From contig NZ_JAASAF010000001.1 of NCBI RefSeq assembly GCF_012726195.1, forward strand, positions 186,001-250,000: a stretch of 64,000 bases of DNA. Reading direction: 5' to 3'. Numbering within the stretch: the stretch's first letter is position 1; each line of letters starts with the position of its first letter. Below are positions 27,194 to 31,425 of this stretch, one piece after another. The translations under genes and the position numbers were made by a program. The notes under the pieces are model-generated. The model was not told where the DNA came from. It worked only from the letters and a program-made list of their open reading frames with translations, and did no database searches. Source of the stretch: Rhodococcus sp. HNM0563. Its GTDB lineage: Bacteria; Actinomycetota; Actinomycetes; Mycobacteriales; Mycobacteriaceae.

Positions 27194-27872
27194 ATGAAGC
27201 CGAGGATTCTGGTTGTCGACGACGATTCTGCGCTCGCAGAGATGCTCACGATCGTCCTGCGTGGTGAAGGGTTCGAACCCTTCGTGGTGGGCGACGGGAC
27301 TCAGGCTCTCGGGGCGGTGCGCGAGATCCGCCCCGATCTCGTCCTGCTCGATCTGATGCTCCCAGGCATGAACGGGATCGACGTGTGCAGGGTGCTCCGG
27401 TCGGATTCGGGCGTGCCCATCGTCATGCTCACTGCGAAGTCGGACACCGTGGACGTCGTCCTCGGTCTCGAGTCCGGCGCCGATGATTACATCGTCAAGC
27501 CGTTCAAGCCGAAGGAACTCGTCGCGCGGGTGCGGGCGCGGTTGCGCCGCACCGAGCAGGAGCCCGCCGAGATGTTGTCCATCGGCGAGATCGCGATCGA
27601 CGTCCCCGCACACAAGGTGAGTCGCGGTGAGGAGCAGATCTCCCTCACGCCGCTCGAATTCGATCTGCTCGTCGCACTCGCCCGGAAGCCGCGGCAGGTG
27701 TTCACACGCGAGGTGTTGCTCGAGCAGGTGTGGGGATACCGTCACGCCGCTGATACCCGACTGGTGAACGTTCACGTGCAGCGTCTGCGCGCGAAGGTGG
27801 AGAAGGATCCCGAGAATCCCGAGGTCGTACTGACTGTCCGGGGGGGTCGGCTACAAGGCCGGACCGCCGTGA
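27194..27872 (+). CDS. mtrA: MtrA response regulator (3' end frameshifted by a G7 tract)
   Basis: The essential OmpR-type response regulator of the MtrAB system controlling replication, division and wall genes. The receiver domain has [14 protein letters not shown], the phospho-acceptor in [16 protein letters not shown], and the conserved Thr and Lys in VMLTAKS and YIVKPFKP. The winged-helix DNA-binding domain reads [20 protein letters not shown] to [13 protein letters not shown]. At 27840-27846 there are seven Gs; six would give the usual [11 protein letters not shown] and TGA at 27870-27872. With seven, the stop is skipped and the frame continues into mtrB. The end given assumes the six-G reading (225 residues). 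Confidence 0.9.
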
Positions 27873-29644
27873 TCCGTGCTTACCGTCTGCGGCGGAGGAT
27901 CACACGGAGAACTCTGCCGCTGCTGAGGTGGTCACGCACGCTGAGCAGTGGGCTCGCACATACCTGGCGTCGATCACTTCAGCTGAGGGTCGTTGCATCG
28001 ACCCTTTCCCTCTCACTGATCGTGATGCTCGTGTTGGGGGTCGTCCTCACGAGCCAGATCACCGACCGTCTCCTCGAAGTCAAGATCGATGCGGCTACCG
28101 AGGAGATGGAACGCTCTCGCGCGCTGGTGGAAGCCCAGCTCGCGGGAGCCGACGATTCCGGTTCGCTCACGGTCCGGCTCGACGGTGCTGCCGCGAGCCT
28201 GACCAACCGGGGAAGTGATGCAGGGCAGGACACCGGGGTCGCCGGGACGTTCGATCCGGTGCTCATCGTCCCCGGTGACGGGCCACGTGCGCCGACGTCG
28301 AGCGGGCCGGCCGACCAGATCCCGCAGAATCTGCGCGCGTTCGTGCAGAACGATCAGATCGCCTACCAATTCGCGCCGGTTGACGACCCGGACGGATATT
28401 CCGGTCCGGCACTGATCATGGGTAGCCCGACCGAGTCCGACATCTCGACACTCGAGCTCTATCTGGTATTTCCGTTGGCCGGCGAGGAACGCACCCTCGC
28501 GTTGGTCCGCGGAACCCTTCTCGTCGGTGCCGGTGTGCTTCTGGTGTTGCTGGCAGCGATATCCATGATCGTCGCCCGACAGGTGGTTCTGCCGATTCGC
28601 TCGGCCTCGCGTATCGCGGTGCGCTTCGCGGACGGCCGGCTCAAGGAACGCATGCCGGTGCGCGGTGAGGACGACATCGCTCGCCTGGCGATGTCGTTCA
28701 ACGAGATGGCGGAGAGCCTGTCGCGGCAGATCACCCAGCTCGAGGAATACGGCAACCTGCAGAAGCGGTTCACATCCGACGTCAGCCACGAGCTCCGCAC
28801 TCCGTTGACCACTGTCCGGATGGCTGCCGATCTCATCCACGACGGCAGCGACGAGCTGGATCCCTCCCTCAAACGTGCATCAGAACTGCTGGTCGCCGAA
28901 CTCGATCGGTTCGAGTCGCTGCTGAACGACCTCCTCGAGATCAGCCGCCACGACGCCGGAGTGGCAGAACTCGCGTCCGAACAGCTGGACCTGCGCATGT
29001 GTGCGCGGGCGGCGATCGGGACGGTCCGTCATCTCGCGCGCGAGACGGCCACCGAATTGATCGTGGATCTGCCGGACGATGCAGTCAACGCGGACGTCGA
29101 TCCGCGTCGCGTCGAGCGGATCCTGCGCAATCTCCTCGCCAACGCCATCGACCACGGCGAGGGCAAACCGATCTTGCTGCGCCTACGCGCCGACGACAAT
29201 GCGGCCGCGTTCGTCGTGCGCGACCAGGGTGTCGGCCTGCGTCCGGGGGAGGAGAAGCTCGTCTTCAACCGGTTCTGGCGCTCCGATCCGTCGCGGGTAC
29301 GACGCTCTGGTGGCACCGGCCTGGGACTGGCGATCAGTGTGGAGGACGCGAATCTGCACAACGGCAAACTGGAAGCGTGGGGTGAGCCGGGGCGAGGCGC
29401 GAGCTTCCGGTTGACGTTGCCACTTGTGCGGGGGCGCAAGGCGGGCCGTAGCCCACTCCCGCTCGTCCCCACTGCGGTTCGTGCGGTCCAAGGCAAGCCC
29501 CCGCCGGAACTGCCGGCGGGCGAGAACGCGGGAGTCGTCGAGAATACGGCCGGTCCGGAAAAGGCCGGAACGAGCGAGAACACCGGGCCCAGCGACAGCA
29601 CCGGAACGAATGAGCCTGCACCATCCGAAGGAGCCGCAACATGA
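27869..29644 (+). CDS. mtrB: MtrB sensor histidine kinase
   Basis: The membrane sensor partner of MtrA. The GTG at 27869 overlaps the expected mtrA stop (GTGA), giving 591 residues. A basic leader precedes helix 1 (about residues 41-62, [20 protein letters not shown]). An extracytoplasmic domain follows, then helix 2 ([20 protein letters not shown]), a HAMP domain, and the HisKA box [20 protein letters not shown] with the phospho-histidine. The ATPase motifs are [26 protein letters not shown] and GGTGLGLAI. The C-terminal 70 residues are low-complexity. As sequenced, the same frame is continuous with mtrA. The ATG of lpqB overlaps the stop. Confidence 0.93.
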
Positions 29645-31425
29645 GCCACCGCCGCTCACGTGTGCTCGGTTGCGTGATCGCCCTGTTGTCGGCGCTCGCG
29701 TTGGTGGTGCCCGGTTGTGCGAGCCTTCCCGATTCCTCATCGCCCCAGGCCATCGGAACGATCGACCGCGGACCGGCGACGACGGAGGTGCCCGCGCCGG
29801 AACCGGGACGCGAGCCCGACCTGCTTTTGAGAGACTTCCTCCAGGCCAGTACCAACCCCGCCAACCGCCACGTCGCGGCTCGCCAGTTCCTCACCTCGGA
29901 GATGTCGGCGCGGTGGGACGACGCAGCCAGTGCCACGATCGTTGACAAGGTCGATGTTCTGGCCGAGGAGCGTGACGGCAACACCGCCACGTACGTCGTG
30001 CGCGCGAACATCGTCGGGCATCTCGAGGAGGGCGGCCTCTACCGCGCCGACAACGGTGATCTCGAAGCGAAGTTCTCGCTGGTCCGGGACAACGGCGAAT
30101 GGCGGATCGACGAGACGCCGCCGGGCGTGATCATGGACAAGGCTCGATTCCTCAACAGTTACCAACGTCGATCGTTGTACTTCGTCACTCCAAGCGGCAG
30201 CACCGTCGTTCCCGATCCGCGGTGGATATCCGGAACACCCGAGCAAGCGGCGACGCAGCTGATCGGGCTTCTCATCGAAGGACCCAAACCTTCGCTTGCG
30301 CCCGCCGTGCACAACGAGCTGGCCGACACGACGATCCTCGGTCCGATCACCAAGGCGGACGGCCGGACCAGTCAGGTCGGCGTGGGCCTCGGCGGGATCC
30401 GGGTGGACTTCGGCGGACTAGCGTCGCTGGCGGAACCGGCAAGGGAACTCCTCGCAGCCCAGGTGATATGGACGCTGGCCAACGCCGAGATAGCGGGGCC
30501 GTACGTCCTCCTCTCGGACGGACAACCGCTGGACGAGCGCTACCCCAACGGGTGGACCACAGCCGATGTGGCGACGATGAATCCACTGGCGACTTCGGGG
30601 ACACCGATCGGGTTGCATGCGCTTCTCGGCGGCAGTCTGGTCAGTGTCGCGGAAACCGGCGTCACACCGGTCCAGGGCTTCTTCGGTTCGGTCGACAATC
30701 TTCGTTCGGTGGGGATGTCGCGCGACGGAGCCCTTCTTGCGGCCGTAGCGGACACCGGCCGGCCGGCACCCGAGCCTGCCGCGGAGCTCGTGGTCGGTGC
30801 GTACAACGACGGATCGCCGGAACCGGCTGTCGAAGGAGCGTCCATCACCCGGCCGTCGTGGGCACCCGACGGCAATTCCGTGTGGGCGGTCGTCAATGGC
30901 ACTGCCGTGGTGAGGGCGGTCCGAGAACCGGGCAGCGGACGCGTCACGGTCGTGGGGGTCGAGGCCGGAGCGATCCGCGCACTCGGCGGCCGCATCAGCG
31001 AATTGCGTCTGTCGCGCGACGGCGTGCGCGCCGCGATGATCATCGACGGACGCGTGTATATCGCGATCGTGGTGCAGACCCCGAACGGTGAGTTCTCGCT
31101 GACGAGTCCACGCGAGATAGCGTTCGATCTGGGCGGGCCCGCCTTGTCGCTGGACTGGAGCACTTCCGACACAGTCGTGGTCTCCCGGTCGGCCTCCGAC
31201 ATTCCCGTCGTTCAGATCGCGATCGACGGATCGCGGATGGACGCGCTTCCGAGCCGGAACCTGACACCACCGGTCGTCGCGGTCGAGGCATCGACGACCA
31301 CCGAGTACGTGGCCGACACGAGAGCGGTCTTCCAACTGAACAACAGCGATCCTGCAGGCGACCGGTACTGGCGGGAAGTACCCGGCCTGGCCGGGTTGAC
31401 CGCGGAGCCGGTGTTGCCCGGCTGA
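29641..31425 (+). CDS. lpqB: LpqB, lipoprotein partner of MtrAB
   Basis: A 594-residue lipoprotein that modulates MtrB signalling at the outer face of the membrane. The signal peptide ends in the lipobox LVVPGC with the modified cysteine at residue 26. A GerMN-like domain ([20 protein letters not shown]) is followed by a beta-propeller ([48 protein letters not shown]). ATG overlaps the mtrB stop (ATGA), keeping the three genes translationally linked. Length and domain order are normal. Confidence 0.95.

Follow-up and report, generated by a model that had tools for sequence, protein, structure and literature searches.

In the window, i.e., the whole stretch of 64,000 nucleotides from Rhodococcus sp. 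HNM0563 that was analysed, a run of seven Gs close to the 3' end of mtrA places this gene and the downstream mtrB in a single open reading frame of 816 codons, as an earlier note on this DNA had claimed. Comparison with related genomes makes it probable that the seven-G tract is a true product of slippage on a six-G tract, and that this slippage is recurrent and fuses the two frames. The evidence for the fusion consists of assembled sequences, from one strain of each of three fused species. Beyond the earlier note, these sequences show that the fused frame recurs across species and suggest that the start signal of mtrB stays intact within it. A conserved regulator of cell division and envelope growth would appear to have been altered repeatedly by a one-base slip that joins regulator and kinase; if real in culture, the fusions would offer natural test cases for the function of a tethered response regulator and a reason for checking the tract in strain collections. 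No report of a fusion at the mtrA tract was found in the open-access literature, as far as the available portions of its texts extend.

The mtrA-mtrB junction

The genome of the window (G000; a 5.54-Mb assembly in 53 contigs, 100% complete) carries mtrA, mtrB and lpqB in this order on the plus strand (Table 1), encoding an OmpR-type regulator and a HAMP/HisKA/HATPase kinase. Gene order and domains are those of the MtrAB-LpqB system of Actinobacteria, in which, however, regulator and kinase are two proteins, whereas G000 reads both as one frame in which the last eight MtrA residues are changed relative to its relatives. Apart from two partial paralogue matches, mtrA has one full-length match in G000, and its codons 1-215 are 93-99% identical to those of 17 other genomes of the genus (99% in the case of G001, whose MtrA matches the M. 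tuberculosis MtrA structure 2gwr over 1-225). The tract reads gtc c, then GGGGGGG, then tcggctacaaggcc. The start codon of mtrB lies in a GTGA overlap, and with one base added the reading of MtrA therefore continues in the MtrB frame without meeting a stop. The resulting frame (27194..29644, plus strand) reads through the GTG of mtrB, so that as sequenced mtrA and mtrB are not separate reading frames in G000. In agreement with the domain content described in the earlier note, a domain search places Response_reg at 5-114, Trans_reg_C at 147-217, HAMP at 460-510, HisKA at 523-589 and HATPase_c at 636-745 of this frame. Runs of seven Gs are rare: 400 kb of G000 contain three, including that of mtrA, and of the remaining pair one falls outside the alignment to G001 and the other is in frame.

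Table 1. Features of the mtrA-mtrB-lpqB locus, in window positions.
Feature	Position	Strand	Basis
mtrA, unaltered part: codons 1-217, receiver and most of the winged helix	27194..27844	+	ORF, domain search
Seven-G tract; six Gs in most relatives having the tract	27840..27846	+	sequence comparison
Shifted stretch from tract to mtrB start: GRLQGRTA replaces VGYKAGPP	27845..27868	+	alignment
AAGG, probable mtrB ribosome-binding site, 10 nt before GTG	27855..27858	+	
mtrB, GTG start at 27869, sensor kinase, in frame with mtrA here	27869..29644	+	
lpqB, unbroken frame, third in the operon, overlapping mtrB by ATGA	29641..31425	+	

From the tract to the mtrB start, none of the six four-fold sites varies among 17 genomes, whereas elsewhere in mtrA 11 of 116 such sites are invariant. 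This strong synonymous constraint at the end of mtrA (27847-27872) probably reflects the mtrB start signal. The AAGG motif within mtrA, which is unchanged in G000 and G010, is the probable ribosome-binding site of mtrB, and since this start signal is intact, free MtrB may still be made despite the fusion.

The predicted MtrA-MtrB fusion of about 816 residues resembles hybrid histidine kinases (PMC3018481, in the portion available) in joining receiver and transmitter in one chain, but differs from them in that a receiver and a DNA-binding domain stand ahead of the membrane sensor and in that a single base separates it from the two-gene form. Within the fusion, MtrA would lack the final strand of its winged helix and would be tethered to the membrane. 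The loss of the VGYK strand should weaken DNA binding, on our assumptions about the structural role of this strand and the membrane topology of the fused protein.

Tract length among relatives

Six Gs, taken as the normal count in the earlier note, is indeed the usual length among relatives having the tract. In the 18 genomes of the window's genus, the tract has six Gs in 10, seven in two (G000 and G010) and five in one (G005), and is interrupted in five. G010 (Rhodococcus yananensis FBM22-1) has the same seven-G tract and open fusion, as does G166, which belongs to another genus and was first recognised by its long open frame. The fused frames of G000, G010 and G166 comprise 816, 820 and 780 residues, respectively, with the kinase motif at 528-529 in all three. 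A pattern search for at least seven Gs at the site, after either Arg codon, returned exactly these three out of 401 family genomes; the first family pattern, requiring C before the run, had missed AGG-coded tracts, and wider patterns were used later. In a scan of 84,980 species with C required before the run, G010 was matched and no other locus was, G000 itself possibly lying outside the scan.

In the genus of G166, 34 of 59 genomes have a run of at least five at the site. All 14 forward-strand tracts have six Gs. Reverse-strand matches came without run length in the pattern search, and the 20 reverse-strand lengths, read from the loci, are six in 17, seven in G166 and five in G297 and G383. 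The codon pair AGG GGG at the mtrA tract is common to at least 22 genomes of this genus, across its six-G, seven-G and five-G forms, and a run of VGYR type is uncommon there. In G297, which has five Gs, the MtrA frame continues into an unrelated tail to give 311 residues in total, and mtrB lies in one frame.

The tract thus differs between species at 5, 6 and 7 Gs with a change of frame, which is the pattern expected of phase variation. Likewise, phase variation in M. tuberculosis involves short homopolymers with frame-changing length variants (ESX-1-associated tracts, PMC11898584; glycerol kinase variants, PMC6667613; both in the portions available); there, however, one gene is switched off, whereas the mtrA slip fuses two genes and is known here from differences between species.

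The count of pure-G tracts comprised 48 (12 in the window's genus, 33 in the genus of G166 and three others), AGG six-G tracts being counted in the genus of G166 only; that of G023 falls outside the 48. Four of these tracts are off-length (G000, G010, G166 and G297), three by +1, the fusing direction, and that of G297 by -1. G297 was retained on account of its mtrB, which lies in one frame, whereas G005 and G383 (five Gs plus a further loss) were dropped beforehand because other genes are split there too; their loci (L098 and L154, respectively) lie in poor assemblies with split genes around mtrAB. Against these 4/48, none of 57 control runs in coding sequence with a length of at least six was scored as shifted (p = 0.04). 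The excess is weak and vanishes if three alignment-flagged control runs are counted as shifts; these three sit at ORF ends where the alignment is gappy and did not pass the two-sided coding test, for which reasons they were scored as unshifted.

A tree built from the operon region places G010 outside G000+(G001,G005) with support of 1.0. Because G010 branches outside and G001 has six Gs, at least two length changes took place within the genus, either two gains or a gain and a loss. The fused tract of G166 would add a further event.

Sequencing error or DNA change

The earlier note had offered two explanations, a homopolymer error in the assembly and a genuine fusion, the latter perhaps with free MtrA made through slippage. 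Some platforms are prone to errors in G runs, and an error would mean that the locus really holds six Gs and encodes separate proteins, the same homopolymer having been miscalled in a few genomes. In favor of this explanation, the off-length tracts of G005 (75% complete, 950 contigs) and G383 do accompany other split genes, showing that errors can produce tract lengths of this kind. The three fused genomes, however, are 99-100% complete, and mtrA is their only shift judged coding. When 400 kb of G000 were compared with 400 kb of G001, in blocks mostly about 88% identical, 287 G000 ORFs used as reference gave four frame changes with a coding signature on both sides and 291 G001 ORFs gave two; by eye, two of these were recognised as coding shifts, one at the mtrA tract of G000 and the other a 1-nt insertion in G001 mtrB. 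The remaining candidates (210989 and 231260 in the G000 stretch, 309454 and 315500 in the G001 stretch) were judged by eye to be upstream or poorly conserved sequence. For G010, 77 ORFs in two contigs used as reference gave no frameshift event, and none of 49 genes compared by protein was split. Two of these 49 proteins matched two frames, which was taken as a tandem paralogue pair, and one candidate obtained with G000 as reference against G010 contig C18 shares its stretch with 231260 and was likewise taken to be non-coding. In G166, 44 ORFs over 70 kb aligned to G345 gave mtrA as the only shift.

The G/C runs in G000 ORFs checked against G001 comprised 43 of six, two of seven and 342 of five (9/342 unaligned); alignment flagged five G000 runs as shifted, and the two-sided coding test was passed by mtrA only. 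The other flagged runs (three of six and one of five in G000, three of five in G166, six of five in G010) lie in divergent alignment and failed this test. Among 102 gene-genome pairs, from 17 genomes and six genes of the operon region (the tract being outside the query), only mtrB of G001 is split. In this strain (L094, C2), a single-base insertion at about codon 47 leaves a 136-residue MtrB, and the mtrA tract has six Gs. Codons 1-215 of mtrA align in one frame in 146/146 family genomes, as does mtrB in 141/141 family genomes sampled, G001 not being among them. One or two stop codons lie inside 27 of these 141 mtrB matches, and in six of the 27 (G013, G016, G022, G132, G155 and G166) the kinase frame runs without a stop for 253 residues or more, counted from the H box; on the basis of these six, the stops were taken as natural ends.

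Collectively, these frameshift checks speak against generally faulty assemblies, and a lone sequencing error behind the seven-G tract is unlikely. Because the same slip occurs in two other species, a real unstable spot is preferred over a lone sequencing mistake. Between the two options of the earlier note, a true DNA change is favored by the clean surrounding coding sequence and by two further genomes with the fusion, one of them outside the genus, and miscalling of the same homopolymer in several genomes appears rather improbable.

Origin and possible roles of the fusion

The repair background is compatible with slippage. MutS was not found in any of the 18 genomes of the window's genus, and NucS is present in 17 of them, the miss being the 75% complete G005. 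According to the available parts of the respective sources, MutS-MutL is absent in almost all Actinobacteria (PMC5290159), indels are not corrected by NucS and loss of nucS leaves the numbers of short indels unchanged (PMC8228993), and a 6-C reporter in M. smegmatis acquired +1 in the run in 15% of sucrose-resistant clones (PMC10159617). In a lineage with no detected MutS and a NucS of a type that does not correct indels, the six-G tract at the 3' end of mtrA (Arg-Gly-Val, CGG GGG GTC) could slip to seven Gs, possibly in a reversible manner.

Slippage could also take place during expression, with ribosome or polymerase yielding free MtrA and fusion in six-G and seven-G strains alike. A -1 slip on a six-G tract would enter the same fused frame, and the G run could act as a slippery site for programmed ribosomal frameshifting. 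Folding of the RNA at this site of the window showed nothing unusual (z -0.51) and so lent no support to recoding, which is judged very unlikely. Slippage in the DNA, the preferred reading, could in turn have been selected, the tract being retained as a reversible 6/7 switch between diffusible MtrA with a separate MtrB and a membrane-tethered fusion, i.e., a phase-variable master regulator of envelope growth in this family. The run at the site in over half of the genomes in the genus of G166 and the excess of +1 over -1 changes among the kept off-length tracts are in line with such a switch. In the same genus, A precedes the run (AGG GGG) in 22 of the 23 tracts read, although, in proxy genes of G166, AGG accounts for 2.4% of the Arg codons and GGG for 17.6% of the Gly codons. 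The VGYR form, which we take to be that expected of paralogous regulators, has only 28 matches in 19 of the same 59 genomes (genes counted by pattern, with run length known for the forward strand alone), mostly with other bases between the Gs and T. However, the run may be an inherited codon choice, the tract is absent in 5 of the 17 kept genomes of the window's genus, its CGG form is absent in 385 of 401 family genomes (AGG forms being outside this count) and the change in G297 goes in the opposite direction. A selected switch is judged unlikely, on what the compared genomes offer.

Changed or broken mtrAB alleles, the fusion among them, might instead have been picked up in culture, which is a tentative possibility. 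The unrelated insertion that truncates MtrB in the close relative G001 points in this direction, as does the ability of several relatives to dispense with MtrAB (PMC9599347 and PMC6265350, in the portions available); the fusions, however, retain the entire kinase and the greater part of MtrA, and mtrB aligns in one frame throughout the family genomes sampled. Culture, natural selection and drift would all be routes to recurrent change of the operon, and the data choose none of them. The earlier view that MtrAB is normally essential holds for M. tuberculosis (PMC6265350, PMC9159947) but is not general, as strains lacking mtrA have been made in M. smegmatis (PMC6265350) and strains lacking mtrAB in Dietzia (PMC9599347), both by deletion, according to the available portions of these reports. 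Since such deletions are tolerated, a changed MtrAB is compatible with life, and recurrent change of the operon, including the truncated MtrB of G001, is plausible.
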